A stretch of 64,000 nucleotides of DNA. Origin: Prostheceraeus crozeri (Eukaryota > Platyhelminthes > Polycladida > Euryleptidae). Positions 38,655 to 63,893 of this stretch are shown here, one piece after another. Both the position numbers and the translations under genes were made by a program. The stretch is taken from assembly GCA_907163375.1 (NCBI GenBank), contig CAJQUW010005364.1, positions 124,001 to 188,000 of the forward strand, in the 5' to 3' direction. The notes under the pieces are model-generated. The model worked only from the letters and a program-made list of their open reading frames with translations, searched no databases and had not been told where the DNA came from. Each line of letters opens with the position of its first letter. The stretch's first letter is position 1.

Positions 38655-40061
38655 TCATCAACAATAATTTTCTTGACCAAGCACTTCTTATAAAAGTCTG
38701 TTGTATCGCCAATCAGACAAAGGTTGCATAGCGACGATGCTGCATAATCAGACACAAATATAGGTCAAATGACGTGCAACAGACAAGCATTTTATCAGCT
38801 ATCTGTTACTTCTATCACTCGTTTATGAAATTGACATTCTATCAGTTGATAACTTACAACTGATAACTGTCAACTGATAACTGATAGCTGATAAAAGTTT
38901 TATGAAATAGGCCCCTGGCTATGGACTCACTCTTTTGGGTACAATTCGATCGCATCGACGGGAAATACCGGCACACATGAAAACAGCTCAGCAGCGAGCT
39001 GTCCACTCAAGTATTTTTATTCATGATCATGAAAATAAGATCTTTTTAGTGTCATACATACGTAAAAAAGGCAAAAATGTTTTGATGTTGAGTTCCTCGC
39101 ACAGCGGAAACGGAATTGTACCGGAAATGAACAACAAGCCGCAATTGATTATGGATTACAACGTGGGAAAAGGAGCAGTAGACCAACTGGATGAAAACGT
39201 AGCCGAGTTCACATGCAAGAGAAAGACTGTCCGATGGCCGCTCTTGGTTTGGTATAACATGCTCGATGTTGCCGCATATAATGGATACTTACTCTGCAAG
39301 TTTGACAATAATGCAGTTGAAAGACGAAAATATTTGAAGGATCTAACCTACCAATTAGTGTACAATTTTGCGTGCCAACGGAATGCTAACAAAAATCTTC
39401 CATCTGAAAGCAAACAAGCCGCTGAAATTCTTGGATTCAAAATCCTTAATCCTGCAGTCACTCCACTTAATGACCAAAGTGCTAAGGGTTGCTTTGTGTG
39501 CAAAAAAATACACGAAATAAATGCGATGCCTGTATGAGAGCAATTTGCCCAAATCATCGTGTGATAATAAAGTCTTCGAAGTGTCAGTACTGTTAGTCGT
39601 CCTCTACTATAATTCAATATTCACTCACAACTTCATTTCTAAATTGTCAATATGACCCTATGAGTTGTATATTAGTTCAATGATATGTAATTATGGCTTA
39701 TGACCTTTCGTTCTGTAACATTAAAAACATTTTAAAAGGATCAAATATGACTTTTACAGGTAACTACAAAATGTAGTGGATGCTAGGTTAAGGTATATTC
39801 ATTTCCGTGCGAGGATAAGGGTTAAGATGCTTATTAGCAACTATTCATTCCTTTTGATATCCGACTTGTTTCATACTACTTATTTAGGAGTCATCTCGGT
39901 AGTATGTAAATTGGCAAATTTTGACTTTTTTAAAACTGCTCAAATATTTTTGGACCACGGGAACGTAATCTACACAGGAAACTGAATCTTTTCATGTAAA
40001 AATTCTCTCTGTATACACATACCTTTTAGGGTCGACACTCTACCTATATATCCCTACTCTA

Positions 40062-44229: not shown

Positions 44230-45885
44230 CAGTCCGTTTCATAAAAAGTGGATCATCCTAAAATTTGACTAAATAAAACATAAGTATGATACAGAAAGCA
44301 TTTTTCATGTTATTGCATGTCCTTAATATATTTAGATGTCCTTATATAATCTGATAAGCTATGATACAGTAACGGTTCTTAAGAAGCTAATATTTTGTGG
44401 CCCTACCCTTATTGTCAATGACATTACCAATTCGTCTAGGCATTGATTCGATAATATCGTTGATTTTTGACTGATCTAACTTTCTCCACTCTCTTTTTAA
44501 CAGTGACGTAAGTTGTGATGCGCCATCTGTAGGTAGCAGTGAACGACGAACGTTACGTTTTAGAATACTCCATACATTTTCTATGGGATTCAGATCAGGA
44601 GAACGAGCTGGCCAAGATAATGTCCTAAGCCCTAATTGAGACTTGCACAAGTTGACTCTACTACTCCTGTGACACGTAGCATTATCATCCATAAATAACC
44701 AAGTCGATGGATCACCAGGTTGATCTGTCATTTGGCCAATGTTCATTCGTAAAACATTCACATAGCGTTCAGAATTCATGGTTCCTTGCTGTATGTGAAG
44801 TTCAGAGCAGCCATTGGTCCAAATGCCAGCCCAAATTAGTAGAGTCGCACCACCTTGTACCCGGGGACGATGTAAATGTCTCGGAATTTCCTGATCAGAT
44901 TTTATCCATAATTTCAATCGACCCTCACTATCCTTCAGACGGACTGATGCCTCATAAGACCAGACAACCCGATCCCATTGATTTCGCCAGTGACAATGAC
45001 TCATTGCCCATCTGAAACGTCTTTTTGTATGCTGATCTGATAATTCGATCTGAGAGGGTCTCTTACAGCTCTTGAAATTCGACTCAATAAGTCTTCTACG
45101 AATAGTGGACTTAGAAATAGACGAGTATAGTGCAGCCATCTCAGTTAACGAGAGACTTGGATCAACTTTAACAAATCTCAAAATTAGGCGGTCTCTACGT
45201 TTGGATGTTTTGCGTGGACGGCCAGAGCCCTCTTTACGACAGAGTCGAAAATCATCATTATGCCATCGATGCACATTTGTGTAAGGGACATTTAGTCGCT
45301 TGCTTGCAGCTCGCAAAGAAAACCCTTGTTCTAGCAAGGCTGACACTTTGCCTTTTGTGAATGCGATCTCGTTATTGTTCATTTGTGCTTTGTATTGTTT
45401 TCAACCGGTAAGAGATAGATTTCTAGCTGAAAGCAATCAGGAGTGCTGCCAACACCACCGCAACGAAGTCAGGAAGCTATGGAACATGAAGTCCAGTTAA
45501 TCACATGTAGCAGTTACATTATTGTTGATGAATAATGGTGCTATACTGGCTCTGATTGACCGATATTCTTTAGTTTTGTTTTGCTTGATAGCTTTTGGCT
45601 TGTAGAACAACATATTACATAACAAAGGAAACAAATGTAATTTTATAAGAGTGAGGTATGATTTTGTGTAACATTGCTAAATGAAGATCAAATTATCTAC
45701 TACTTCTTTATCTATAACAGGAAAACAACTCAATATTCATGCTTGAAATTTCCAACAATGATATTAGTAAGCACAACTGACATATCTTCCAAATTTCAGA
45801 GAAATTCGTTCAAGTTTGGCGGAGTTAGACAAAGTTGAAGTTAAGGCGATGTTTAAGGGTGATCCATTTTTTATGAAACAATCTG
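44230..45885 (-). mobile_element. Tc1-type transposon, complete outline, 1656 bp
   Basis: TA flanks both ends (44228-44229 and 45886-45887). Terminal inverted repeats: CAGTCCGTTTCATAAAAAGT on the left and CAGATTGTTTCATAAAAAAT inverted on the right, similar for about 35 bp. The transposase is inside on the minus strand. Confidence 0.9.
44387..45382 (-). CDS. Tc1-type transposase, full length, first catalytic Asp replaced by Tyr
   Basis: 331 aa, close to the usual length. The N-terminal helix-turn-helix pair (FSLRAASKRLNVPYTNVHRW; TEMAALYSSISKSTIRRRL) is joined by a GRPR-type hook (GSGRPRKTSKR). The DDE core has LFMDDNATCH (Asp233) and RSPDLNPIENVWSILK (Glu268), 34 residues apart (DD34E). The first motif reads VVWSYEAS where the family has WSDE, so residue 143 is Tyr instead of the metal-binding Asp. 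No stops or frameshifts. Expected to bind ends but not to cut. A sequencing error or very recent mutation are the alternatives. Confidence 0.95.
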   Translation of the reverse strand: MNNNEIAFTKGKVSALLEQGFSLRAASKRLNVPYTNVHRWHNDDFRLCRKEGSGRPRKTSKRRDRLILRFVKVDPSLSLTEMAALYSSISKSTIRRRLIESNFKSCKRPSQIELSDQHTKRRFRWAMSHCHWRNQWDRVVWSYEASVRLKDSEGRLKLWIKSDQEIPRHLHRPRVQGGATLLIWAGIWTNGCSELHIQQGTMNSERYVNVLRMNIGQMTDQPGDPSTWLFMDDNATCHRSSRVNLCKSQLGLRTLSWPARSPDLNPIENVWSILKRNVRRSLLPTDGASQLTSLLKREWRKLDQSKINDIIESMPRRIGNVIDNKGRATKY

Positions 45886-45887
45886 TA

Positions 45888-48136
45888 TTATCAGCTGATC
45901 ACCACCTCCCTCATTTCGTGCACGCGCATCTCCGATCATTGTCTTCTCCCCAACCATGTTGCTCGCACGCTTACCCTGCTTCCCTCGCACACTTTTTCCT
46001 CTCAGCGATGGAATCCTAAGTGAGTCCATGTCTCAGCGTTCTGTAGACTGAACCGATGCGCACGCGTGGGAACTGCAATACGTCCACCTCGGAAAACGGC
46101 TTTCGCCACTAGCGAAAGCAAAATTGCAGTGCAAAGAAAGGTACACAACCAGTACCGTCTATCAAGATTTTTTAATTTGGTCTGTATCGATACTAGAGCA
46201 TCATTTAAGTTGATTCAGCGCCGTCTATTTGCAACTCGAGGCGCAATTCTCTCGCTGCGCGTCGAAGAATTCTCGGTGATGACGTCAGCTGTGATACGGT
46301 GACAATAAAGGACGGCAGCAGTACGCAGCGCTGACTGCAGCACTGAGGTGTCAGCCGTCTCAGTTAAAGGCGTGCGTGTACTAGGCGGCCAGTAAGAATG
46401 TTTAGTCATCGCTGCGGAGATGGGAAGTCATCTCTCTGTGCGCGCACTCTCCCGACGCCAACAATTGGTCGTGGCGGCCATCAAGATTTGCAGCGACGCA
46501 CAGGCGACCAAGATGTCGCAGCGACCAATAAAATGCATTACAGCCTATCACAGAGCGCGCACTTTCATGGTCGTTCATTTTTGAGGCCGCAGCGGCCTTA
46601 GTGCGCGTACGTCGCAAGTCCCGTTTGCTCTGAACATTTTCCGATGGAGACAGGACATTAAACTTGAAGTACGATTTGTTCAAAACGGTTAAAAGCAACC
46701 ACAGGAAATCTTAAAGGATCGGGCTTTTCTGATGTTGAACTAGGATCGAAAAGGGACCGGCTGTAAAGCTTCCACTGAGAAGTCTGGATTAGAAATATTG
46801 AATGCCATGAATAATTGAGCATGTAGTAATCGTGGGTGTTAGCATGAGAGCTGATAGTTGTGTTCCGTCATTTGTTAAACATAATTGCGTTTCGAACAGC
46901 CTTAAATGCGTTAAAGAACGAACGGTGTTCTAGCGATGCCAATATGCAAACCTGTATGAATAATCTACAAAAAAGACTGCGATAATGGTTTCAAATACTA
47001 TCCTTGTGCAAATATTTGCTTGAAAAGTCCCTGCATTATAATGAGAAATTGGCTGGAGTCAGGGAAAAAGCCAAGGTGTTCGGTTCACGTTTTCTTAAAA
47101 AAGACACGATGCATTTCGTGAACCTCCGGCGCACATGTTCACGCGAATAATGAAGACATTGCACAGTTGGTGACAGACGCTCAGTCGATGACATCATAGC
47201 GCGGATGATGTGTAACTACAGTGCTGAAATAAATAATGTACTCAGACGAATACTACTAAAATTAAAAAACAAAAGTAGAAAGGCAAAGTCAAAAAAAAGG
47301 AAAAAGACAATTGAAAGTCGAGGATCATAGTATCTCACTCCACACAGATCCAACGTTGCATTCCACCTTGTTGACACTGTTGAACTTATTGGACCACAAC
47401 GATTCTTTAATGACACGTCTTCGGTACATGGGATCGCTGTCAACTGTACCACAATTGTCCGCGTAAGCATGTGCGCCGGAGGTGAACCGAACACCTTGGC
47501 TTTTTCCCTGACTCCAACCGATTTCTCTTCAAATATTTCTTCTAACCATATCTTTAACATTTTTTACTCGCAATGATAATGGCAATTAAGTCAAATTTAA
47601 TTATATCACCGATAGTTGTAGGCGCAAAATATGATAATTTCGCAAAATGTGCAGTCAGTATCACGGTATTTAAATGATACCGTGATAAATGTTCTAGAAG
47701 CCGAACTAGTTGTACTTGCGACTGTGACATTTTCGCACCATTGCAAATGAAGAGCGGATTTTTAACCTTATCAGGAAAAAACAGACAAAGAACAGATCAT
47801 CATTATCATCCTACACTCTAAACAGCTCCCGAATTTTTCAGAAAAATATCTTTGATGATCTGCCTTTTCAGGATCGAGATTTTGACGATTACAGCACAAA
47901 GAATCATTACGAAACGAGTGAATAGCCTTACTTATCATTTATCATTTAATTCGACAGTTGTGTTGTGTCTCGTGCTCCGTCGCTGCTGCTTCGTGTCTGT
48001 CACACCTGGCTTCCACCAGTCTATTCCTCTTGGTACTCGCAACGATTGGAGTTCCTAGTTTATTCTCCAATTTGCTTTGAGTAGTAAGAAAACGGCGAAC
48101 ACCAGATAGCGCAAGATGGCCGCCATCGCTGACTCC
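45888..48136. other. No supported gene; one split inverted repeat
   Basis: GTCAGGGAAAAAGCCAAGGT and CCTCCGGCGCACATG at about 47055-47140 recur inverted as one contiguous block at about 47470-47515. The left arm is split by about 30 bp. The stretch around 46240-46620 is richer in GC than the surroundings, but no ORF is recognised. Confidence 0.5.
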
Positions 48137-51120
48137 CCCCCCCTCCCCCTCCCCCTCCCCCTCCCCTCCCCCTCCCCCTCCCCTCCCCCCCCTCTGGAAC
48201 GGCAGAGTGTCGTGGTCGGCCGCCGTGGTGCTTTGGGTCTGAGTGTCGTGGTGGACTTGGGCGACCGCCAGGATTAGTCTTGAGGCTATAGTGTGTGATG
48301 TTTTTCGTGCTGAATGTTGGGTTGTAAAATGGGTTGTTTCGAGTGGAAGGAGTGGTTGGATGAGAAAACGGAGGTCGGATTCGTGTTCAGCGTGAAATTC
48401 TGCATCGGTAGGGTGAGTTTCAAGGCAATCGGTGAGAAAAAATTTTCAACATTTTTCGAAAAACGACAGAGTTAGAATTTGGGACGTTTTGGTGTGTAGC
48501 GTCCAAACGAAGCATCGGATGAGAAAACGGAGGCCAGATTCGGAATCTACGTGAAATTTTGGGTTAGGAAGGATGTTTCCAGCGAAATCGGAGAGAAAAA
48601 ATTTTCACTGACCTCCCCCCCCCCTCTGGACAGCTTGCTTCGATTTTGGCTTCTAGTGGACGGATTTTGTCGTGCGATAGCTCGTTTGAAAGCTAAGAGT
48701 GAGACAAATTCAGTGAAAGAATCGGCTTGTTCCTATCTGTCTTCGTTTAGATGTGAGACGCCATTTAAGATTTTGGGACATTGGCGAAAAACGACAGAGT
48801 TAGAATTTGGGACGTTTTGGGCTGTAGCTTCAAAACGAAGGCTCGGATGGGAAAACGGATTTCAGATTTGGAATCAGCGTGAAATTCTTTATCTGTATGG
48901 TGAGTTTCAAGTCAATCGGAGAGAAAAAATTTTCAACATTTTTCGAAAAAACGACAGAGTTAGAATTTGGGACGTTTTGGTGTGTAGCGCCCAAACGAAG
49001 CATCGGATGAGAAAACGGAGGCCAGATTCGGAATCTACGTGAAATTTTGGGTTAGGAAGGATGTTTCCAGCGAAATCGGAGAGAAAAAATTTTCTGCTGA
49101 CGTCCCCCCCCCTCTGGACAGCTTGCTTCGATTTCGGCTTCTAGTGGACGGATTTTGTCGTGCGATAGCTCGTTTGAAAGCTAAGAGTGAGACAAATTCA
49201 GTGAAAGAATCGGCTTGTTCCTATCTGTCTTCGTTCAAAAGTTAGAGCGGTTACAAGATTTTAGGTCGGAGCTCGCTTACCTGAAAAAATCCTAAGTGTC
49301 AGAGTGACTTTGTATGGGTAAAATTTTGAAAATTTTCCAAAGTGTGGAATTTCGACCTGGGACCGTCACCAAAACATTTTTCATCAAATTCTGAAATTTC
49401 GCTGACCTCCCCCCCCCTCTGGACAGCTTGCTTCGATTTTGGCTTCCAGTGGATGGATTTTGTCGTGCGATAGCTCGTTTGAAAGCTAAGAGTGAGACAA
49501 GTTCAGTGAAAGAATCGGCTTGTTCCTATCTGTCTTCGTTCAAAAGTTAGAGCGGTTACAAGATTTTAGGTCGGAGCTCGCTTACCTGAAAAAATCCTAA
49601 GTGTCAGAGTGACTTTGTATGGGTAAAATTTTGAAAATTTTCCAAAGTGTGGAATTTCGACCTGGGACCGTCACCAAAACATTTTTCATCAAATTCTGAA
49701 ATTTCGCTGACCTCCCCCCCCCTCTGGACAGCTTGCTTCGATTTTGGCTTCCAGTGGATGGATTTTGTCGTGCGATAGCTCGTTTGAAAGCTAAGAGTGA
49801 GACAAATTCACTGAAAGAATCGGCTTGTTCCTATCTGTCTTCGTTTAGATGTGAGACGCCATTTAAGATTTTGGGACATTGGCGAAAATCGACAGAGTTA
49901 GAATTTGGGACGTTTTGGGCTGTAGCTTCAAAACGAAGCATCGGATGGGAAAACGGATTTCAGATTTGGAATCAGCGTGAAATTCTTTATCTGTATGGTG
50001 AGTTTCAAGTCAATCGGAGAGAAAAAATTTTCAACATTTTTCGAAAAAACGACAGAGTTAGAATTTGGGACGTTTTGGTGTGTAGCGCCCAAACGAAGCA
50101 TCGGATGAGAAAACGGAGGCCAGATTCGGAATCTACGTGAAATTTTGGGTTAGGAAGGATGTTTCCAGCGAAATCGGAGAGAAAAAATTTTCTGCTGACG
50201 TCCCCCCCCCTTCTGGACAGCTTGCTTCGATTTCGGCTTCTAGTGGACGGATTTTGTCGTGCGATAGCTCGTTTGAAAGCTAAGAGTGAGACAAATTCAG
50301 TGAAAGAATCGGCTTGTTCCTATCTGTCTTCGTTCAAAAGTTAGAGCGGTTACAAGATTTTAGGTCGGAGCTCGCTTACCTGAGAAAATCCTAAGTGTCA
50401 GAGTGACTTTGTATGGGTAAAATTTTGAAAATTTTCCAAAGTGTGGAATTTCGACCTGGGACCGTCACCAAAACATTTTTCATCAAATTCTGAAATTTCG
50501 CTGACCTCCCCCCCCCCTCTGGACAGCTTGCTTCGATTTTGGCTTCCAGTGGATGGATTTTGTCGTGCGATAGCTCGTTTGAAAGCTAAGAGTGAGACAA
50601 GTTCAGTGAAAGAATCGGCTTGTTCCTATCTGTCTTCGTTCAAAAGTTAGAGCGGTTACAAGATTTTAGGTCGGAGCTCGCTTACCTGAAAAAATCCTAA
50701 GTGTCAGAGTGACTTTGTATGGGTAAAATTTTGAAAATTTTCCAAAGTGTGGAATTTCGACCTGGGACCGTCACCAAAACATTTTTCATCAAATTCTGAA
50801 ATTTCGCTGACCTCCCCCCCCTCTGGACAGCTTGCTTCGATTTTGGCTTCCAGTGGATGGATTTTGTCGTGCGATAGCTCGTTTGAAAGCTAAGAGTGAG
50901 ACAAATTCACTGAAAGAATCGGCTTGTTCCTATCTGTCTTCGTTTAGATGTGAGACGCCATTTAAGATTTTGGGACATTGGCGAAAAACGACAGAGTTAG
51001 AATTTGGGACGTTTTGGGCTGTAGCTTCAAAACGAAGGCTCGGATGGGAAAACGGAGGCCAGATTCGGATTCAGCGTCAAATTCTACATGGAAATGGTGT
51101 ATTTCTAGCTCAATCGGAGC
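48137..51120. repeat. Satellite-like array with a higher-order repeat of about 1.1 kb
   Basis: After a pyrimidine tract of (CCCCCT)n type (48137-48192), the phrase CAGCTTGCTTCGATTT recurs at 48631, 49119, 49424, 49729, 50218, 50524 and 50828. Spacings are 488, 305, 305, 489, 306 and 304 bp. A 489-bp unit plus two 305-bp units forms a superunit of about 1099 bp, present twice. Each unit starts with a poly-C run. Open frames inside (KSETNSVKESACSYLSSF) only mirror the repeat. The array ends just before the first promoter of the virus-like element. Confidence 0.95.
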
Positions 51121-51167: not shown

Positions 51168-51250
51168 TTACGTCATCAGCTGATCGCCACACACTATATA
51201 AGCTGGGAACCGACGGAGACTTGTCATTTAGAGGAGAACGATTGTCAGAG
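51168..51250 (+). promoter_or_regulatory. TATA promoter and leader exon of the zinc/coiled-coil gene
   Basis: TTACGTCA (a CRE-like site) at 51168-51175 is followed by TATATAAG at 51195-51202. A leader would start near 51225-51232 and end at CAGAG|GTAGGT (51250/51251). The acceptor CGCTTCAG at 52273-52280 lies 2 bp before the ATG. The predicted 1030-nt leader intron (51251-52280) is rich in hairpins. Confidence 0.55.
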
Positions 51251-52282: not shown

Positions 52283-53455
52283 ATGCCGAAATACAATAAT
52301 ATGAAGACCAGTTTCAAACTGTGTCAATGCCGGAAGGTATTCCGAGCTGACGCCTTCAAAAAGCACGCTTGTACTAACAAGAAACAGATAGGGGTCGCTC
52401 GCTACTATTGCGGAGTCCACAAAGTCAGTCGCTTAAGTGAGCGGCTGGAGGATTGGCACTCACAACACAGCGAGTGTCAAACAGGCGAAGTAGGCGAAGA
52501 AGAACGGAGTTCACTCTTCGCCACTGAGCTCCGTTCTTTAGAGCTACAATCTGCCAACGAGCAAGAACGGAGTTCACTCTTCACCACTGAGGCCACTGAG
52601 CTACAATCCGCCATTGAAGCGATTGCCGCTGTATCCTCGCTTAGTAGCGAGAGTTCGCTGACCAGCAGCGATAGTGAGGAGGAGGAGGGAGAGCTACAGT
52701 CGCAACTTATCAAGGACGTCGACCTCGATCGCGAGACCCCTACAGCCGTAACTGTGAGTGGAATTGCAACACAATGTCGCAATTTTGTCAAGCGCCCGCC
52801 GGTGATCGCCGAACGGGATAGATTAAAGAAAGAGGCGGAGAAGTTGAAGGAGGAGGCCTTCTCATACAAGGCAAAGTATGAGGACCTAAAGAACGTGGCC
52901 GGAGAGATGAAGAAGGTGAAGGAGAGATTAAGCGAGCGGGATGGCGAGTTGGAGCAGGAGAGGCTCAAGACTCTCGAGGGGAAAGCCAGAGAAGAGGCTT
53001 TGCTAGCAGAGAGGGAAAGTAGGGAGAAGGAGATACGAAGGTTGAAGGAGGAAGTGGAGAGACTCCGTGTGCAGATGGCTAAGGTTGTCGAGACGAACCA
53101 CGAGCTGCACCGTTCGGCGCAGCTGGTGGATCGCGATCGAAGGGTGCGTTCCAGTCGTCTGCACATCCCTATTAGAAAGGGGAGAGTAGCAGAAACTCCT
53201 CTCTTGTACGAGCGTGGAAGAGGGGAGAAATGCTACTCTCGGGTGAAGAAAGGGGTGGAGTGTCTACACTTCACCTTCGATCATCGTGATCCGATCTCGA
53301 ATTTCCTTTATGAGGAAGCGTCCGAGAAGATCTGTAAGTAAAAATGACTAAATTGATATGTAAGATGATAACTCACTACTTCTTTCTTTACAGACATCCA
53401 AGAGAAGCGACCACCCGCCCCGTTGCCGGAGCCGCAGTCGAAACAACAAGCCTGA
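52283..53455 (+). CDS. Zinc-binding, coiled-coil protein of unknown function (spliced, 370 aa)
   Basis: Coding parts are 52283-53333 and 53394-53455, with a 60-nt GT-AG intron (ATCT|GTAAGT ... CTTTACAG). The frame is kept and the stop is TGA at 53453-53455. Residues 10-65 hold Cys/His pairs (LCQCRKVFRADAFKKHAC and YYCGVHKV to HSQHSEC), a likely zinc-binding pair. Residues about 70-150 are Ser/Glu-rich with a near repeat (ERSSLF followed by ATEL or TTEA). Residues about 175-280 are a long charged coiled coil. The C-terminus is proline-rich. No family recognised. It lies downstream of a TATA promoter and a leader intron and points the same way as the polymerase. Membership in the virus-like element is inferred from position and compactness. 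Confidence 0.65.
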
Positions 53456-54204: not shown

Positions 54205-54660
54205 TTATGGCATGTATTTCAAAAGGTCTTCATCGTCAATATCGTCCCAGAGTCTGGCTTCACATAGATAACAAAAACAGTTCAGTTGCTTTAATCGTTC
54301 TTCCACTGCAAGCCTCACTTTATCAATATACTCCCACTCTGCCATAGTTCGTGGCTGGGAGTTAGGGGTGTACCACTCCCATAATTGGTGGAGGAATTTC
54401 GTGCTGGTGATCTCCATCACATCGTCAGTATCGTACTGGAGATACTTCCACCTCACGCCTGTTAAGTCGGGACACTCCTTCTCACATACACTCTCCTCTT
54501 CCTCGTCCGCTGGTAATGATAACTTTCGTATATTGTCCAGTCGGTACACCTTCTCCACCTTCGCCTTTCTTGGTGCATTTGGTGTAACGAGCACCTTTGC
54601 TGATGTGCATGGAGAGGAGAACTCCAATGCGGTATTTGGTGTTGTTGGAGGACTTGTCAT
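54205..54660 (-). CDS. Small acidic protein, unknown, divergent from the polymerase
   Basis: 151 aa starting MTSPPTTPNTALEFSSPCTS. The Ser/Thr/Pro-rich head is followed by a basic patch (APRKAKVEKVYRLDNIRKLS), an acidic patch (ADEEEESVCEKECPDLTG) and a helical C-terminal half (FLHQLWEWY, VRLAVEERLKQLNCFCYLC). No family recognised. Its ATG is 225 bp from that of the polymerase, so the two share a divergent promoter region. The stop codon lies inside an AATAAA signal (54201-54206 on the minus strand). Could be a regulatory or minor virion protein; this is a guess. Confidence 0.6.
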   Translation of the reverse strand: MTSPPTTPNTALEFSSPCTSAKVLVTPNAPRKAKVEKVYRLDNIRKLSLPADEEEESVCEKECPDLTGVRWKYLQYDTDDVMEITSTKFLHQLWEWYTPNSQPRTMAEWEYIDKVRLAVEERLKQLNCFCYLCEARLWDDIDDEDLLKYMP

Positions 54661-54733: not shown

Positions 54734-54780
54734 CCAATCAGAATGAACATCCAATGAATGAAGAGAATGAAAGTATATAA
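54734..54780 (+). promoter_or_regulatory. CCAAT/TATA promoter of the DNA polymerase gene
   Basis: CCAAT boxes at 54734-54738 and 54751-54755 and TATATAA at 54774-54780, about 105 bp before the ATG at 54886. Transcription should start near 54805-54812. The order and spacing are those of a strong pol II promoter. Confidence 0.7.
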
Positions 54781-54885
54781 GCAAAGTGACATTCATATCA
54801 TTTCATTTAATCTGTGAATCATACAAGTGACGAACGCACGATCTCTCTCTTTGACTATTATTCTGTCTGATCATATTTCATTAAA

Positions 54886-57800
54886 ATGGTAAGTTAAAGA
54901 TTTCCTCTCTCATCTCCCTCAAACGTGTGACTAATAGCATCTTCCTCAATTTCAGGCATCAACTTCATCACCAACGCCCTCTCTTCTCGAGGAAAGTTTA
55001 GAGTTATTGAGTCAAGGTAGGTTGTAACACTACACTGAGGCTTGAACAGAGATGATAGAATGATTTCTCTTTCAGGTGATGCGAGTTCCAGCTCAGAACT
55101 GTCGCGATATGGCAACGAGTGGGAATGTGCTGACTGTGGGCACATCTTCACGAGGAAATGGGATCTCACCCGACACATCAAGCGAGGTGTTTGTCGACCT
55201 AAGTCGGCATCAATCTCCGAAGGTAGGGATGATTCTGTTAACGATGTCTCCTTTTCTTGCGATTTATGCATTCAGTCTTTCGAGACACGTTTTGAACTAT
55301 CTTCGCACAGACTTCAACATACACACACGAACGATACCTACACCAACGGTACCTCCTCTATCCGACTTACTGAGGTGTCCATAAATAATTTAGTGAGGAA
55401 CTACCAGATGGACTCCTCAGAAACCATTGCTAACTTTGAGGAATGGTTTCATCAAAATTCATCATTGATAGAAGCGCTCTTCAACAATTTAGACAATTTT
55501 AGGATGAAGGCGCTCATCTATCTTAAAATAAAATATGTAAAAATCGACCACCATACTGGACAAATAATAGAGAGGTTAGAGTTTCACATACCCTCCTCTC
55601 CTGCAACCGAGGTTGTAGACTATGAGTCTTGGCTAAATTTTCACATCCAAGGATTAAAATTAAATATTGATAAGTTTAACGAGCGCGATAGCGGTCTCAT
55701 TTTTGACGGCATTGAGTCCGCCTTATTTAAAATCAGTTTATTAGGAAATCATAGTGGTCGAGGCTCCTTTAAACTTCCAAAAAATTTAAAAAACAAAACA
55801 GCAGTCATCAATGTCGATTGCGAATCGCAATGTTTTAAATATGCTGTCCTCTCCATTCTCCACTATAATGACATCAATGCGAATCGAAATCGTACATATA
55901 GCTATAGGCAGTGGGAGAATGAATTAAACTTCGATGACTGTAATAGTGACGATATGAAAATTAAAGATATAGAAAAATTTGAAAAATTGAACAACATTAA
56001 AATAGTTCTCCATGTTTGGGAAAAGGGATTGAAGGGTGTGCGCTACAACTCGCGTTCGAGTTGTTATGACCATGTTGTCAACCTTTTATTAGTAAGACAG
56101 GATGATAGTGAGGAATGGCACTACTGCGGCATTCCCAAAATTTCTCGCTTATACCACCACTTAAGAAATTCTACCTCATCAGAGATTTATTACTGTGACA
56201 GATGCATTCGGAACTTTAGGAGTAAAAACAAATTTGAAACTCATTATGAGTGGTGTAAGCGAGGTAAACTGCAAATGGAACGCATGCCCAAAGATAAGGA
56301 GTTTTCATATAGAGAGAATGGCGATGAACTAAGTCCTCTTCGTGTCATCTATGCTGACATCGAATGTTATATCGATGATAACATCCATCGACCAGCAGCC
56401 ATTTCCTGCTATGAAGTATGGCATGATCACTTTAGGAGTAGGCAAAATAAAATGCGCGTCTGGCAAGGTGAGGATTGTATTTACCAATTCCTACAATTCC
56501 TCGAACAGGCTGTAAAATTTCAGCAAAAGTATGATGGTGAACTCTATCGCAGATCATTGCATATGACAGCAGATGATCAAGCAAAATTTGATAGTTGCAA
56601 CGTTTGCCCCAAATGTAGGAAAACATTTGACGATGATAAGATTAAGAAAGTGCGCGACCATGATCACATCACTGGTAAATTTAGAAACGCACTCTGTTCA
56701 AAATGTAATTTTTCGCTGAGGATGAAGCGGCGTACATTACCCGTCATTTTCCATAATTTCAAGGGCTACGACAGCCATATGATAATAAAAGGAGGTTTAG
56801 GTCAAATGAAAGAGTGGAAGCTTGATGTAATAGCACAAACGAGAGAGAAGTTTATGGCCATGACAGCAAAAGTGCCTGTCGATAAAACTAAAGAAAATAA
56901 GACGGTCTATTTTGATATAAAATTTTTAGATTCCTACCAATTTATGACTGCATCACTGGCCTCTCTCGTGCAAAATCTAAAGTCTCTTCCACTAACACAA
57001 AATCTTAAGAAACAATACCCAAATCTAACCGATGAAGTCATCACACGGAAAGGAGTCTTTCCATATGCATATTTTGATGCAATTAGTAAACTCGGCGAGA
57101 CTTCTCTTCCGCCCATACATAAATTTAAAAATGATTTGACCGGCGCAGAATGTAAGACCGAAGATTATGATCATGCACAAGATGCATGGATAAAATTTGA
57201 CTGCCATACATTTGGTGAATATATGATTGCCTACCTTAAGTTAGATGTATTTTTGCTGGCTGATGTATTTCAGGAGTTTCGACGAGTGGCATTAGAAGAA
57301 GATAAGTTAGATCCCGTCCACTTTGTCAGTCTGCCAGCCATGTCATTTAAGTCTGCTTTTAAAATGACTGGTGAGACCATTCATCTCTTACAAGATCCAG
57401 AGATGTATAATTTATTTGAGCGAGGAATTCGCGGTGGTCTCACATTTGTAAATAAACATAGGTTAAAATCAAAAATAGTAGGCAATGACCAGACTCATCT
57501 GAAGTATTATGACCAAAATAATTTGTATGGTAGTTCATTATCCAAACCGCTACCTCACTCTGAGTTTAGCTGGTTAGATGATAGTGATATTCAACATTTC
57601 TCCAACCCTTCTAACATACTAGCAATTCCAGATGAAGGTGATTGGGGATATTATTTTGAGATAGATCTAATCTATCCAAATAATATTAAACATAAAACCG
57701 TAGATTTTCCACTCGCACCCGAATCAGGTGAAGTGAGTAAAGATATGTTTTCCGACTTTATGAAACAATTTCATAAAGATTTAGAATCATGTGGACAACC

Positions 57801-58860
57801 CGACTATAAGCCTTGTCGCAAACTTTTACTCACCCAGTATGATAAAGAAAACTATCTAGTCCACTTTAGCATCTTAAAATTTTATTTAGAAATGGGCATG
57901 ATTTTAAAAAGAGTTCACCGCATTATTAAATTTAGACAGAAAGCCTTCCTCAAGCCATATATTGATAGCAACAGCCAGAAACGTGCACTAGCCCAAAATA
58001 ACTTTGAAAAAGATTTTTATAAATATAAGAACAACAGTCTATTTGGTAAGACGATGGAGGATGTTAGAAAGCGCGTAAACTACAAACTAGTTAATGATGA
58101 TCAAAAGTATCACAAATTGGTCTCATCACCTCTATTCATCGATAGAGACATTATCGATGAGGACCTTATAGGTGTTAAAATGATAAAATCTGAAGTTGAG
58201 TTGTGCAAGCCCATCTATATTGGTCAAGCTGTTCTAGATTACTCCAAGCTTGAAATGTATCAACTCTTCTATAAAATACTAAAACCCTGTCCTCTCGTAA
58301 AAGAGGTTCGTTTGTTGGGTGGTGATACAGATAGTTTCTTCTTAGGTATTACCACTCAAAAAGATTTAAATTTTAATGAAGTAGGAAAATCTTTAGAAAG
58401 ATATTTTGATACATCAAATTATCCTGCTGATCATCCACTCTACTCCATCAAAAATAAGGCAAAACTTGGCTGCTTTAAGGATGAGACAGCAGGGAAGGAG
58501 ATAGCTGAAATGATTCTCCTCCGTCCAAAAATGTACAGTATGAAATTAAAGGATAGCGACGATAGCATTAAGCGCGCTAAAGGCATATCAAAATCCATTG
58601 TGCAAAATATGAAACATAAGAATTTCAGGAAAGCCTATAGAAATAAAAATATAACGTTTGTCAATATGACAATCTTAAAATCTAAGTCGCATGAGATCAA
58701 AACTCATACTTTTAGCAAACGGGCGCTTTCAGCATGGGAGGATAAGAGGTGCTGGTTAGAACACAACATATCTCTTCCACATGGACATCCTGACACAAAC
58801 ATACCACCACCCAAAAGAATTAAACTCACACTACCACATTCAGGAGACGTCTTAGCATAA
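54886..58860 (+). CDS. DNA polymerase family B, protein-primed (viral/Maverick) type, spliced, 1282 aa
   Basis: Coding parts are 54886-54888 (the ATG alone), 54956-55016 and 55076-58860. Introns are 67 nt (ATG|GTAAGT ... TTTCAG) and 59 nt (CAAG|GTAGGT ... TTTCAG), and the frame is kept. C2H2-type fingers lie near residues 38-60 (WECADCGHIF) and 82-104 (FSCDLCIQSF), with another at about 395 (YYCDRCIRNF). Exo I is YADIECY (~446). A zinc HNH-like insert CPKCRKTF...DHDHITGKFR (~530) follows, then Exo II FHNFKGYDSHMII (~580) and Exo III KLDVFLLADVF (~740). Polymerase motif A is YDQNNLYGSSL (~833), B is NSLFGKTMEDV (~1006) and C is GGDTDSFFLG (~1103). All catalytic blocks are present and unbroken, so it is probably functional. 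It would replicate a linear genome. The long N-terminus may include the terminal-protein region. Confidence 0.93.
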
Positions 58861-59165: not shown

Positions 59166-60686
59166 TCACTTTGTTTTCCGAAACACTAACGTTATGAGGG
59201 ATTTAGTATCTTTCACATGGATGCACTCTTGTAAACCATTGGTAATTTTGATAGCAATAGAGGGTATAGTTTGTTTGACGACGGGATGATAGAAAATAGA
59301 TTCAAACATCTTCTCGACTATTCCATATGAAGCGTCTTTATCATGAATGAAATCACGTAAAATGTATTCTTTTTTCTCACCAACAGAAATAGGTAGAATC
59401 AAATCACTTTGAATGTAAAGGTGCTGTTCATGTTTATCAAGTGTCATTGGTGTTTCTATACCAATCGTATGCGCAGCAGCAAACACAGTTTGTAGCATTG
59501 AAAAACCAAAGAGTTTTTTCAAATTTTTACTCAATTGACATTGAATGTCATCACCCAGTTTCAGAACAACGCGTTGATTTTCAATTGAAAACGAAATGTG
59601 GTGTGTCTTTGCATCATATTTACTTTTCATCACATGCTTCAACTTCTGTTGTATATAAGGATTTACTACATGAATGAAGCTTTCAACTGTATGATATAGA
59701 CGCGGCATTATATTGATAGCAACTTTAGATTCTTCATAAGACTGGTAAATTTTCTTGATGCGATCGCCATAGATGTCCACCCACCATTCATCATTAACTG
59801 AATCAGCTTTAGTGTGATATTCATGAGAACCATACACCACACCGCTTCCAATAATAGGCGTATAATGTCTTACAAAATGACGCAAGGTTGGAGAGAAATA
59901 AACTGTAAGTTTGTCATTATATTTCTGAATAACCAACTTATTTTTGTCCGCCATAATTTTCTCTCCATACTTCTTACCCACAGTCTCATTCCATCGTTTT
60001 ACTAACTCAATAAGTGATAAAGGTTGAACACCACGCTTTTTCAAAATGATGCGTTCTTCGCATTCTACAACATCTTCATCAAATATTTTAAATCTATAAT
60101 GAAATTTGTTGATTCGAGTTGAATAAACTTTTTTAACATTTGCAGTAGCAATTGACGTTAGATGTAGTCCATGACCAAAACCAAGATGTGGATAGAATTC
60201 ACTATCCAACCTCAGCGTAAGACCTTTAGTAAAAGAATGAAAGCGGAGGAACTGTCTCCCACTCCAATGATAGATAGTAAACTCATAAGCTTTCTGATTT
60301 TTATTCTTCATGATGGAAGTATTACCACTGTTGAATGCCTTAATAATTTTCTCATTCCCAAATGGCTCATAAGAATCTGATTTTATCTGAATCCATTCAT
60401 AGTTCCACTTTCCATCTGATGTTAAATTGTATGGGAACTGAAATGCATTATTCATCGTTATTCCATCATGGGTGCGAGGAGTCAATATCATTTCTTCCAA
60501 ATCATTCACATTCTGAATATTGCTATCATAGCAAATACTAGAAACGCCAACTTCCCATTCACCTTCTAAATGCAGTGGCCGATTTAATTCTACTCGATAG
60601 TCTGATGGTTTATTTTTGGGAAATTTATTCATAGAAGCATTACTGGGCAAGTAGATTAGAAACGAGTCCTTATTTTCACTTTCCAT
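59166..60686 (-). CDS. Element-linked protein, paralogue B (506 aa), virion candidate
   Basis: The start at 60686 is chosen because MESENKDSFLIYLPSNASMN matches the start of the paralogue; an upstream in-frame ATG adds 10 residues. Near residue 40 it has HLEGEWEVGVSSICYD and it ends with SLITLVFRKTK. I recall this family, with a WEVGV block near the N-terminus and a strand-rich C-terminus ending in F-R, as widespread beside polymerase B genes in animal genomes and uncharacterised. Two paralogues of about 500 aa, rich in predicted strands, in a virus-like element suggest capsid or other virion proteins, but no jelly-roll fold can be proven by eye. It lies 40 bp after the stop of the upstream paralogue. 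Confidence 0.75.
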   Translation of the reverse strand: MESENKDSFLIYLPSNASMNKFPKNKPSDYRVELNRPLHLEGEWEVGVSSICYDSNIQNVNDLEEMILTPRTHDGITMNNAFQFPYNLTSDGKWNYEWIQIKSDSYEPFGNEKIIKAFNSGNTSIMKNKNQKAYEFTIYHWSGRQFLRFHSFTKGLTLRLDSEFYPHLGFGHGLHLTSIATANVKKVYSTRINKFHYRFKIFDEDVVECEERIILKKRGVQPLSLIELVKRWNETVGKKYGEKIMADKNKLVIQKYNDKLTVYFSPTLRHFVRHYTPIIGSGVVYGSHEYHTKADSVNDEWWVDIYGDRIKKIYQSYEESKVAINIMPRLYHTVESFIHVVNPYIQQKLKHVMKSKYDAKTHHISFSIENQRVVLKLGDDIQCQLSKNLKKLFGFSMLQTVFAAAHTIGIETPMTLDKHEQHLYIQSDLILPISVGEKKEYILRDFIHDKDASYGIVEKMFESIFYHPVVKQTIPSIAIKITNGLQECIHVKDTKSLITLVFRKTK

Positions 60687-60719
60687 ATTATTCACATTGG
60701 AAAAATATATTAGCATACT

Positions 60720-60729
60720 TTTGCATTAA
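60720..60729 (-). promoter_or_regulatory. ATGCAAA motif before paralogue B
   Basis: ATGCAAA on the minus strand at 60726-60720 overlaps the stop codon of paralogue A and lies 33 bp before the ATG of paralogue B. An AATATAT stretch follows. The same heptamer precedes two other genes of the element. Confidence 0.4.
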
Positions 60730-62123
60730 CTCTTCATTCGGAAATGGAGTGTAATACTTGTCACAGCATCTTTATGAAAAGGAATCAACGCACCAGCATC
60801 ATCATAAATGGCAATATCAATTTGTGGGATGTAGTTTGATTTCAGCTTTGTATAATGCACTTTCTTGAAAGTATGCTCAGATAAAATACTGCAGCTTTTT
60901 GGCTGGTATGGTATCATTGCTAGCAATGGAGCTTCAACATCTCCCACACGTACATCTTCACCAATATTGGAATATATCTGAAAATAGTTAATACGACGCG
61001 ATAGCGACATGTCTGCGCTAGCTTTGGTTACAGTACCACTTTTAAAGATATTTTGATCAAAACCCAAAATGTCCATTAGAGTTTTATCCATAATTAGTTC
61101 AATACCTTTTCCATTTATAGTGAGAGACAAAGTACCTTCTTTTTCAGAAAATGAAATATGTTGCTCATTAATCACTTCATTTAAATAATCTACAACCAAT
61201 TTAACCGAAGTAATAATGCGAGGCATCAACACTCTTGTTTCATGTAAGAAACCACCAAAAGGCTCTACACACTTTCTGTATAAAGATACGGCCCATTCTG
61301 TATCAAATTGATTTGACCTTTCACATGGTAAATGTTGCATATCAGATTTTCCATGAACAGCTGCAGAACGATGTCGTAAGAACTGATGAAAATCTTTTGA
61401 ACAAACTAATACTAGATCATCATCATTTAATTTGCTTATTGCAATATGATTAGATGATTTGATATAAGTCAATGTTGCCACTTGTTTACCATCAACTCGA
61501 AGGAGATAATTAAATTTCTTCAATAATGTTTCAGGAGTCATGTTTGTCTTTCTTGGTTTAATCACAATCTTCTTCACCAACGTCTTCTCATTTCTTGGAA
61601 TAAGATCTACATAATAAGCTTCCTCTCGATATATTAACTGTTTATGACCACTTATGTGGTAATTAACGTTAAAATTATCATAGCTTGTTAAGGCGCTAGC
61701 GAGGTAGCCTAAATCATTTCTTAAACTTGGACTTAAACCAACAATCCAATCTTTCTCAACTACATGATGTACATAATTATAATCATCATTGTGCGGAGTA
61801 AATTGGACAATATGTTTACACGCTTTATTCAAGAAATCATATATAAACTTTTTACATGATAAGAGATCTTTCTTTGGCCACTGTGGAATGTATACTCGGC
61901 ACCCCTTTTCACATTGATAAGCAGCTGTACGCCTCATATTAATAGTCATCACCTCATGATCAAAAGTATAGACACAGTTGCTATAAACAAGTTGAGTGAC
62001 ACCCACTTCCCAATTTCCATTTAGCTGTTGTGCATGATCAATGGGAGTAGAAAAGAGTGCGGCTCGATTGCTAGTAAATCTCTTTGTAGCCGCATTGCTA
62101 AGCAAAATATGATAAAACGACAT
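60726..62123 (-). CDS. Element-linked protein, paralogue A (465 aa), virion candidate
   Basis: The start at 62123 (MSFYHILLSNAATKRFTSNR) is preferred over an in-frame ATG 21 bp upstream, by alignment with paralogue B. The key block is QLNGNWEVGVTQLVYSN (~residue 35). A late block VGDVEAPLLAMIPYQP is followed by IDIAIYDDAGALIPFHKDAV and the end SITLHFRMKS, which is how I remember this family ending. Function unknown; a virion structural role is inferred. The ATG is only 35 bp from the divergent ATG at 62159. Confidence 0.75.
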   Translation of the reverse strand: MSFYHILLSNAATKRFTSNRAALFSTPIDHAQQLNGNWEVGVTQLVYSNCVYTFDHEVMTINMRRTAAYQCEKGCRVYIPQWPKKDLLSCKKFIYDFLNKACKHIVQFTPHNDDYNYVHHVVEKDWIVGLSPSLRNDLGYLASALTSYDNFNVNYHISGHKQLIYREEAYYVDLIPRNEKTLVKKIVIKPRKTNMTPETLLKKFNYLLRVDGKQVATLTYIKSSNHIAISKLNDDDLVLVCSKDFHQFLRHRSAAVHGKSDMQHLPCERSNQFDTEWAVSLYRKCVEPFGGFLHETRVLMPRIITSVKLVVDYLNEVINEQHISFSEKEGTLSLTINGKGIELIMDKTLMDILGFDQNIFKSGTVTKASADMSLSRRINYFQIYSNIGEDVRVGDVEAPLLAMIPYQPKSCSILSEHTFKKVHYTKLKSNYIPQIDIAIYDDAGALIPFHKDAVTSITLHFRMKS

Positions 62124-62158
62124 TTTTATATTGCTAATCTGCAACTTTGCATAACATC
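62124..62158. promoter_or_regulatory. 35-bp divergent start region
   Basis: All that separates two divergent start codons. On the minus strand it contains ATGCAAA (62152-62146) and CAATATAAAA just before the ATG. Too short for two ordinary pol II promoters, so the transcripts must overlap the opposite genes, be leaderless or be spliced to remote leaders. Confidence 0.5.
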
Positions 62159-62515
62159 ATGAAGACTTGGATTTTGGACTCTCTACAATATATCAGAGTT
62201 GATCGTGATGGAAACGTACATTTCAAAAATTCTCATGGTCATACATCAAGAGGAATTACATTAACATGGCGACAATTTGTCAACCTCAATGATATCATGA
62301 GGGATTTGGAATATTTTGAAACATTAAGATTCATCTCCTTGGGTGATCAAGTTTGGCTTCAACATTACAGAAATGAAATTCAAATCTACCATTCTCATTC
62401 CGCAAACTGTTTCTCATTTCGCAAATACAATTGGGAGAAGTATAGAAGATACATACATCGCTCCATCATGACATTTATTCGTCGTGAGTTCATCGCCCTA
62501 CTATGCAAATCTTAA
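62159..62515 (+). CDS. PC4-like protein 1 (118 aa)
   Basis: The ATG at 62159 starts MKTWILDSLQYIRVDRDGNV. The protein has two similar halves. Each runs strand-strand-strand-helix: LQYIRVDRDGNVHFKN ... GITLTWRQFVNLNDIMRDL, then LGDQVWLQHYRNEIQIYHS ... FSFRKYNWEKYRRYIHRSI. That order and the IxLxxxQF/W pattern before the helix resemble the PC4 single-strand-binding coactivator domain. This is a fold-level judgement by eye, not a search result. The neighbour at 62538 is a paralogue in the same orientation (LDSLQ, GNV.FK, WEKY.R..HRSI shared). A role in transcription or single-stranded DNA binding is inferred. Confidence 0.6.
   Translation: MKTWILDSLQYIRVDRDGNVHFKNSHGHTSRGITLTWRQFVNLNDIMRDLEYFETLRFISLGDQVWLQHYRNEIQIYHSHSANCFSFRKYNWEKYRRYIHRSIMTFIRREFIALLCKS
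62503..62509 (+). promoter_or_regulatory. ATGCAAA motif before PC4-like 2
   Basis: ATGCAAA lies 28 bp before the ATG at 62538, inside the last codons of PC4-like 1. Same heptamer and similar spacing as before the two virion-candidate genes. Confidence 0.4.
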
Positions 62516-62537: not shown

Positions 62538-63188
62538 ATGAGTTGGAAATTGGATTCCCTACAACGTATTGAAACGGATCATGATCGAAACGTCTATTTC
62601 AAAGATTCAACTGGAAATGTGAGAAGAGAGTTTGCTTTATCTTATCGTCATTTTCAATCTCTACATCATATCATGAAGGACTTGAAATACTTCTATATGA
62701 AAAGACATTCACGTATTGGAAATCGCATCTGGCTGCGCGTCAACAATCGGCGAATTCAACTCTATCATTCCCAACTGCATACTAACTTCACATTTCATCA
62801 AGGTAGTTGGGAAAAGTATAAAAGGAAGGTACATCGCTCAATTTACTCATTCTTTCATCATGAAGCGCCATCGCTACACCATCGTCAACATTCTCCGTCG
62901 CTTCAGACTCTACACCAAAATCGATCTCACAACATTACACCAACAGCTTCCAAACAGCAAGTATTACCCGGGCCGTCCTCAAATGTTAGTGGTGAAGATG
63001 AACAATTCACGGAATCTTCAACTCTTCCCAAATGGGACTGTACAGATTCTCGGCGCCCTTTCTCATTCATCGGCGCAGTCAATGCGCTTAGAGCTACAAA
63101 GACTACTACGTCGGATATGGAAGAGGGAGAGGTGTGTGATGTCGAATCTGACTGTGGACAATATGGTGATCTCTACTCAATTGAGTGA
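62538..63188 (+). CDS. PC4-like protein 2 with a disordered acidic tail (216 aa)
   Basis: It starts MSWKLDSLQRIETDHDRNVY. Residues 1-112 are a paralogue of PC4-like 1 (FALSYRHFQSLHHIMKDL, IGNRIWLRVNNRRIQLYHSQ, WEKYKRKVHRSIYSF). Residues about 113-216 are a low-complexity, Ser/Pro-rich and finally acidic tail (TTTSDMEEGEVCDVESDCGQ) with no counterpart in the paralogue. The tail is coded by the same DNA as the TBP-like gene in another frame (62860-63188), so this is an overprinted region. An unused open frame is the alternative, but 110 open codons with a biased composition argue for use. Function inferred: single-strand binding or transcription coactivator. Confidence 0.6.
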   Translation: MSWKLDSLQRIETDHDRNVYFKDSTGNVRREFALSYRHFQSLHHIMKDLKYFYMKRHSRIGNRIWLRVNNRRIQLYHSQLHTNFTFHQGSWEKYKRKVHRSIYSFFHHEAPSLHHRQHSPSLQTLHQNRSHNITPTASKQQVLPGPSSNVSGEDEQFTESSTLPKWDCTDSRRPFSFIGAVNALRATKTTTSDMEEGEVCDVESDCGQYGDLYSIE

Positions 63189-63405
63189 CAGTCTATCATT
63201 TTTGAAGATTCGTACCAGCAGTTACAGTTTGTGTTATGAACCCGAACTTTTTCCTGCAGCTCTCATTAGTTGTTGGTTACCTGTGCATGTGGCAATCTTT
63301 CATAATAGTAAAGTGATCATTACTGGACTAAAATCTCATGAACAAGCAAATATGATCCTAGACTATCTCATTGAGTATGTACGTACCCAGCGGATTGTAA
63401 AATAA
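62860..63405 (+). CDS. TATA-binding-protein-like transcription factor (181 aa)
   Basis: The ATG at 62860 gives 181 aa, the size of the conserved TBP core with no extension. Two repeats are visible. Repeat 1 (about 7-83): YTIVNILRRF, KIDLTTLHQQLPNSKYYPGR, MLVVKM, LQLFPNGTVQILGALS. Repeat 2 (about 105-178): LCYEPELFP (residues 124-132), VHVAIFHNSKVIITGLKSHE, then helix ILDYLIEYV. The Y-EPELFP block and the F-xxG/SK-V-TG-K strand are TBP hallmarks. By eye, three of four DNA-wedging Phe positions are kept (F56, F131, F147); the fourth reads Pro40. It overlaps the tail of PC4-like 2 by 329 bp in the +1 frame. An upstream in-frame start at 62716 would add 48 residues without TBP features and is not preferred. 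AATAAA at 63401-63406 overlaps the stop. Confidence 0.8.
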   Translation: MKRHRYTIVNILRRFRLYTKIDLTTLHQQLPNSKYYPGRPQMLVVKMNNSRNLQLFPNGTVQILGALSHSSAQSMRLELQRLLRRIWKRERCVMSNLTVDNMVISTQLSDSLSFLKIRTSSYSLCYEPELFPAALISCWLPVHVAIFHNSKVIITGLKSHEQANMILDYLIEYVRTQRIVK

Positions 63406-63431: not shown

Positions 63432-63893
63432 TTATTTCAAATCATGATAGAACTTACAAATCATTTTTTCATTAGAGGATGGATTACATGAAAAGTTTTG
63501 AATAACAGATGCAAATCGAGATACATGTAAACGTTTTAAGATGAAGTACAGTACAAAAGCACCACACGTTGATGAAAGTGGATGTTGTAGTATGCGTTCA
63601 TTTCGCTGATATTGACGCGTATGTTTTCTCAACCACTGCTGTGTTGGTATATTTGGAGGTTGAGCAAGAGAGTCAAATAGTTCACCACGTCGGTCTTCTC
63701 CAATAAAGATCGCTTTCCAATGCTCACCGCCTAAATTCTGTGAATGAGTGTTTAGCACAATAAAGATGGGATAGTGATTTACTGCAGGTGGTAAGGTATC
63801 GAGTGAATAGACATTATCGAAAGCTTTCAACGTCGCTTCGTCTGCATTACGCTGCACTTTAGTCTTAATATCGTCAGCAGTCAACCAACTCAT
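63432..63893 (-). CDS. Adenain-type cysteine protease (maturation protease), 153 aa
   Basis: It starts MSWLTADDIKTKVQ. Catalytic blocks are LGGEHWKAIFI (His58), ELFDSLAQPP (Asp74), Gln103 before PLSSTCGAFVLYF (Cys110). This is the His-Asp/Glu-Gln-Cys order of the C5 (adenain) peptidases of adenoviruses, Mavericks/Polintons and adintoviruses. It is shorter than adenovirus adenain (about 200 aa) but matches Maverick versions. The expected job is cleavage of virion precursors during capsid maturation, which supports a virion-forming element. Convergent with the TBP-like gene; their AATAAA signals are about 25 bp apart and each overlaps its own stop codon. Confidence 0.9.
   Translation of the reverse strand: MSWLTADDIKTKVQRNADEATLKAFDNVYSLDTLPPAVNHYPIFIVLNTHSQNLGGEHWKAIFIGEDRRGELFDSLAQPPNIPTQQWLRKHTRQYQRNERILQHPLSSTCGAFVLYFILKRLHVSRFASVIQNFSCNPSSNEKMICKFYHDLK

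Follow-up and report, generated by a model that had tools for sequence, protein, structure and literature searches.

A TATA-binding-protein-family gene carried by a Maverick-type element of the flatworm Prostheceraeus crozeri

To our knowledge, TATA-binding proteins (TBPs) have been described so far only from cells, eukaryotic and archaeal (PF00352), and from large DNA viruses. One survey describes TBP-like proteins in 38 large dsDNA viruses; their TFIIB-contact positions vary, and almost all of these viruses bring a viral TFIIB, poxviruses excepted (PMC7221094). Herpesviral TBP mimics of the KSHV ORF24 kind are characterised in abstracts as viral promoter factors that are used with host Pol II and bind DNA in a non-canonical way. 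Vertebrate Mavericks have (AGT)2 repeat ends and 6-bp target duplications (PMC8097293). Among the titles and abstracts of the literature matches listed, none reports a TBP in Maverick, Polinton, polintovirus or adintovirus elements, and the available portions of PMC8097293 and PMC12220804 name none. A TBP in such elements is likely new to the literature.

We analysed a window, that is, the whole stretch of 64,000 nucleotides at G000:C4456:124001-188000, in an assembly of 2,048,925,868 bases. Coordinates without a prefix are those of the window. The borders and genes of the element are:

48074..48079, no strand: left copy of the 6-bp target-site duplication GCTTTG (flank comparison)
48080..51119, no strand: left terminal inverted repeat, starting AGTAGTAAGAAAACGG (blastn, end comparison)
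54205..54660, minus: 151-aa ORF between the left repeat and the polymerase-like gene, no Pfam match
55042..58860, plus: 1272-aa polymerase-like ORF with an endonuclease VII domain and weak C2H2 finger matches (Pfam)
59166..60716, minus: F516, a 516-aa conserved protein with 33 relatives in the protein database
60726..62144, minus: F472, a 472-aa paralogue of F516, likely ATG at 62123
62159..62515, plus: S118, a 118-aa protein with a PUR/PC4-like fold, modelled as doubled beta4-alpha (predicted structure)
62538..63188, plus: S2, a second ORF of the S118 kind, 43% identical to S118 over the first ~110 aa
62860..63405, plus: TBP-family gene, 181 aa, two lobes (Pfam, PDB sequences, AlphaFold, relatives)
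63432..63893, minus: cysteine protease of the Ulp1/adenain kind, 153 aa (Peptidase_C48 0.0012, below cut-off)
L010:6534-8145 = C4456:202534-204145: right terminal inverted repeat, partner of 48080..51119, main blocks 93-98% identical

The inverted repeats start with AGTAGTAAGAAAACGG at 48080 and at C4456:204145, and the right GCTTTG copy lies directly after C4456:204145, so that the same six bases stand at both outer borders and the element measures 32,066 bp. Terminal inverted repeats starting (AGT)2, together with a 6-bp target duplication, are the Maverick/Polinton signature, and the likeness extends to the Ulp1/adenain-like protease and to an rve-chromodomain integrase in sister elements. 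Within the left repeat, units of 160 and 305-306 bp are repeated in tandem. In a sister locus of a second lineage (L011, lineage B), the protease is followed on the minus strand by genes for a capsid candidate of 426 aa, a basic protein of 132 aa and an integrase of 362 aa (Pfam rve 1.5e-13, Chromo 1.5e-7); the L011 protease scores above the cut-off (Peptidase_C48 7.7e-5), as expected of an adenain-like protease. Three loci of lineage A (L012, L013 and L014) carry an integrase ~62% identical to that of L011. The window copy is a damaged member, because all that is left of its integrase is a piece of 36 residues and a stretch 31% identical, flanking proline-/glycine-rich frames, and a frameshift splits its capsid candidate gene; undamaged single genes exist in sister elements. 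No Pfam match of the packaging ATPase or jelly-roll capsid kind was found among the candidate genes; where element genes are named ATPase-like and F54H12.2-like, these names are our assumption. Unlike known Mavericks and Polintons, this element carries a TBP and two S118-type genes, and its genes occur in thousands of near-identical copies in one genome.

Within the 1272-aa ORF the endonuclease VII domain scored 6.4e-7 (Pfam), and we take motifs read by eye to be polymerase-B-like; no polymerase match was found in the Pfam or PDB sequence searches. F472 resembles F516 most over the first ~80 residues, and F516 is perhaps a virion protein. Further observations concern the remainder of the element and its surroundings. 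The left part of the element contains a 352-aa coiled-coil-like ORF (52283-53341) with a GT..AG-like intron at ~53334-53393 and no family above cut-off. About 7 kb of proline-/glycine-rich low-complexity frames occupy the expected integrase position (L009:3800-10000 and L010:1-680, ~C4456:189800-196680), and a 118-aa basic protein with a Gly-Gly site (L010:3631-3987) weakly matches the adenovirus mu core protein family (0.0024, below cut-off). Outside the element, the window has DDE transposase frames (Pfam) at 1019-1618, 34948-36066, 36411-37448, 38935-39537 and 44387-45382, presumably of the Tc1/mariner, piggyBac and Harbinger kinds.

A preliminary description of the window had noted a 181-aa TBP-like frame; the frame is open and all four motifs quoted for it are present. 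Pfam TBP (PF00352) matches both repeats in two stretches, with 74.9 bits against a cut-off of 22.9 (4.6e-21), and the predicted two-repeat saddle was borne out by an AlphaFold model that is a complete two-lobe TBP. A search of PDB sequences to E 10 gave 36 matches, of which 35 were TBPs or TBP-holding constructs and the last a chance TonB match. In the protein database the gene has 61 relatives, all carrying a precomputed Pfam TBP, which excludes a chance match. Positions 2-177 of the family profile align on the Methanocaldococcus jannaschii TBP. A TBP match, a saddle and a conserved frame, whose absence would in the preliminary description have spoken against a TBP, were all found. We regard it as nearly certain that the TBP-family gene is real, and a regular and selected component of a Maverick lineage.

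The TBP residues were counted over 55 rows (the query, 52 of its 61 relatives, and single copies from lineages B and C) and compared with host and human TBP; yeast TBP numbering and the residue roles are those we presume to apply. On the C-lobe face N159, V161, F207 and T215 are kept in 55/55 rows and F190 in 54/55, and L205 is replaced by A, T or S in 55/55. The TFIIB-contact glutamates are likewise kept (E186 in 54/55, E188 in 55/55). The N-lobe retains F116 (55/55) and N69 (49 rows, six gaps), but F99 has become P (54/55), V122 Q (55/55), L114 Q (52/55) and T124 L (49/55), and V71 is M, H or L in 53 rows, with two gaps. Three of the four DNA-kinking phenylalanines are therefore kept, F99 being the exception. 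It is these four N-lobe replacements (F99, L114, V122, T124 to P, Q, Q, L), together with its location in a mobile element of thousands of copies, that distinguish the element TBP from the cellular one. The preliminary description had proposed that the element brings its own promoter-recognition factor. What stands is a genuine TBP-family gene in a Maverick-type element, regular and under selection; the N-lobe DNA-reading face is consistently changed and therefore canonical TATA recognition cannot be assumed. Because the reading residues of this lobe changed together, a target other than plain TATAAA is expected.

The importance of the TFIIB-contact glutamates for TBP is discussed in the survey of viral TBPs (PMC7221094). 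The TFIIB family is found at only two loci of the assembly (four exon matches) and was not found among the element ORFs tested, from which it is most likely that the element borrows host TFIIB. The large-virus TBPs resemble the element TBP in being TBP homologues in a DNA virus-like genome; by their descriptions they are set apart from the element, which keeps the TFIIB glutamates and has no TFIIB multiplied with it. The ORF24 kind of mimic is also set apart, being described as a mimic that binds DNA in a non-canonical way.

The best 150 matches of the TBP protein in its own assembly were all 99-100% identical and none had a stop; 66 of them, the window copy included, were 100% identical. The exact TBP-promoter 33-mer TATAAAAGGAAGGTACATCGCTCAATTTACTCA occurs 4,443 times in the assembly (2,265 + 2,178) and an exact 33-mer at the protease gene start 4,412 times (2,233 + 2,179), with 0 occurrences of the reversed control in either case. 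For 76 of 98 TBP-promoter matches (listed places, contigs up to C244) the protease lies on the same strand, 1043 +- 60 bases away. By arithmetic, copies would fill ~142 Mb if every one were full length. The TBPs of lineages B and C are ~42% identical to that of the window. Lineage B (L004, L007, L011) has the gene order of the window as far as the loci reach, lineage C (L006, L008, L015, L017, L018) has the TBP near the polymerase-like gene, and all three lineages hold the TBP near their own polymerase-like gene. A fourth type (L048/L066) has a TBP 79% identical to the window TBP; a fifth (L025), with a TBP 37% identical to that of lineage B and one stop, was set aside. In IMG/VR no relative was found for the TBP sequence or profile, the polymerase-like ORF or the F516 profile, and phage records likewise gave none. 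Some TBP copies are arranged in opposition: two face each other round polymerase fragments at L017:4459-4986 and 8462-8989, and further pairs lie a few kb apart at C5257:64106-64648 / 66420-66962 and C4639:43866-44408 / 48925-49467, as if parts of elements had been joined as palindromes.

In a broader sample of 53 TBP copies, 39 were full length and gapless; the 32 of these that were also stop-free (17 of 20 in lineage A, 2 of 2 in B, 13 of 17 in C) were used for dN/dS, leaving 21 that were not. The window and L048 TBPs (79% protein identity) differ with dS 0.45 and dN 0.116, a ratio of 0.26; L048 gave 0.29 against L012 and 0.27 against L016. Pooled ratios within lineages were 0.39 for A, 0.39 for B (one pair) and 0.51 for C, and the window differs from L016 by 10 changes, 8 non-synonymous and 2 synonymous (ratio 1.16). 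Purifying selection is visible between lineages (0.26) and fades within them (0.39-0.51 pooled); the within-lineage ratios are as would be expected if resident copies drift after insertion. The preliminary description had suggested a tree with cellular and viral TBPs. In the tree built here, from 20 family rows and 6 cellular rows (host TBP, host TRF2-like, human, E. cuniculi, archaeal), a single branch of ~4.6 changes per column, with 100/100 support, separated all 20 family rows from the cellular ones. This long, fully supported branch strongly disfavours a recent capture from this host. That the host genome contains both a TBP and a TRF2-like gene would suit a bilaterian animal; a search for hemocyanin_M gave no match, an outcome that does not prove absence.

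Sequences that resemble Pol II core promoters lie before two of the genes, and the start of the polymerase-like gene was read from the sequence:

54774..54780, plus: TATATAA, a candidate TATA box, putatively assigned to the polymerase-like gene
54802-54808, plus: initiator-like TTCATTT before the polymerase-like gene
54886..54888, plus: putative first ATG of the polymerase-like gene (sequence reading)
54889-54955 and 55017-55075, plus: candidate GT..AG introns after that ATG (sequence reading)
62817..62822, plus: TATA box (TATAAA) for the TBP gene, within the S2 reading frame and 43 nt ahead of the ATG
62847..62851, plus: initiator-like TCATT, whose A (62849) follows the first T of that TATA box by 32 nt

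The box at 62817 is the TBP gene's own and was absent from the preliminary description, which had listed two TATATAA promoters. That at 54774 is present, 31 bases before the A of the initiator-like TTCATTT; the other, at 51195, is present as well, just within the left inverted repeat, but no gene can be assigned to it. The spacing from first T to A is 31 for the polymerase-like gene and 32 for the TBP gene. The ATG of the polymerase-like gene and its two short candidate introns would mean nuclear Pol II transcription. The TBP promoter recurs across lineages: counted back from the ATG, all 21 copies of lineage A have TATAAA at 43 nt and TCA[CTG]T at 13 nt; in lineage B all three have TATAAA at 46-47 and the initiator at 16 nt; in lineage C all six assessable copies have TATAAA at 43, five of the six with the initiator at 13, which 17 of 21 C copies have overall. 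The other 15 of the 21 C copies show no TATAAA only because the sequence retrieved for them reaches no further than 36-41 bases upstream of the ATG. Nine of 12 database relatives have, by eye, Ile-Lys 13-14 codons before the start Met, as ATAAAA would give, and P0015, P0025 and P0049 do not; these 12 are the relatives that extend 14 or more residues upstream of the family start Met, rows of the divergent clade with no clear Met being left out. Part of the conservation of the box is coding, because it sits in the S2 frame (Tyr-Lys-Arg codons).

A separate motif, ATGCAAA, which we take to resemble the POU octamer, was found in 5 of 16 upstream windows (F516, F472, S2, the basic protein and a pX-like gene), with 0.24 expected. 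A 7-mer as enriched appeared in 11 of 1000 random draws, and the top enriched 6-mers (6 of 16 windows) were equalled or exceeded in 50 of 1000. In L066, ATGCAAA again precedes F516 and F472 at corresponding positions, but in lineage B it is absent before both of these genes. It is the best candidate for a target, before five putative virion and neighbouring genes, and is offered as a weak lead.

The model of S118 has the beta4-alpha fold and matches Pur-alpha better than PC4. No PC4 or PUR match up to E 10 was found by Pfam in any of six S118 members. Two other identities for S118 were set aside: PC4 as read from sequence, which lacks Pfam support and is backed by the model in part, Pur-alpha fitting better; and a match to an adiponectin construct in PDB, in which no single stretch passed. 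The S2 frame overlaps the first 326 nt of the TBP gene (62860-63188). Of 21 lineage A copies, 19 have the S2 stop 326 nt into the TBP gene and two have it at 44 and 422 nt; the stop falls at 338 nt in three of five lineage C copies (137 and 20 in the others), and at 46, 140 and 305 nt in lineage B. The overlap is possibly a case of overprinting. Outside this genome, a relative of S118 (80%) and one of the TBP (82%) have longest contigs of the same length, 1771 bases, as do a relative of F516 (84%) and the window's S118 cluster, at 12,876; both are hints.

The TBP is probably a promoter factor of the element that works with host TFIIB. The gene would encode the TBP of an old Maverick/Polinton lineage, and its product would be expressed early, host Pol II reading the TATA-plus-initiator promoter. 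The protein may bind element promoters through its conserved C-lobe and rewritten N-lobe, and its retained Glu-x-Glu pair would bring host TFIIB, and with it host Pol II, to the genes of the element. Two further proteins, those of the S118 type encoded just upstream, may act with it as single-strand-binding coactivators; the PUR/PC4-like reading of the pair rests on the model of one of them. Counting against a promoter role, host TBP could equally read the TATA boxes of the element. A more specific proposal, which we make tentatively, is a switch in promoter specificity, in which the TBP and polymerase genes would be expressed early via host-type TATA and initiator, and the element TBP and its two PUR/PC4-like partners would then direct host TFIIB and Pol II to separate virion-gene promoters (candidate ATGCAAA). 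That such a switch would be a herpesvirus-like late switch, run from a true TBP inside a transposon, is conceivable at the same tentative level.

The canonical TATA-to-initiator spacing of the TBP and polymerase-like genes would also suit a TBP that only sustains host-type TATA transcription of its own element, adding to the dose of a general factor, with no separate specificity; we consider this doubtful, as the four N-lobe positions that presumably read TATA in cellular TBP are consistently changed. A decoy, or host-shutoff factor, would keep TFIIB binding, read DNA poorly, and titrate TFIIB or cap host promoters. The TFIIB-contact glutamates are indeed retained in a protein that has half of its DNA face altered, and thousands of gene copies could supply a high dose, but the nearly invariant C-lobe DNA face and three N-lobe changes fixed in 52-55 of 55 rows look like a new specificity rather than a loss, and a resident element that shut off host transcription would presumably be costly, which makes this unlikely. 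Mobile elements do pick up host genes; even so, it is extremely improbable that the TBP is a recently captured, functionless passenger, given the position of all family rows beyond the long branch, the 61 relatives and the dN/dS of 0.26. The protein might finally bend DNA for replication, packaging or the repeat ends and be no transcription factor at all. The long repeats and polymerase-like gene of the element would suit such an architectural protein, TBP-like lobes occur outside transcription in RNase HIII (PMC7221094), and a PUR/PC4-like neighbour fits transcriptional and architectural roles alike; we find this role quite unlikely, since the retained TFIIB glutamates would have no obvious use in it.

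A TBP on a 32-kb mobile element, with thousands of near-identical gene copies in one animal, would mean that a part of Pol II initiation can belong to Mavericks. Its mixture of residues, with the C-lobe and TFIIB contacts kept and the N-lobe reader rewritten, is a natural experiment on each half of TBP, and the finding raises the question of how the host tolerates thousands of TBP genes.
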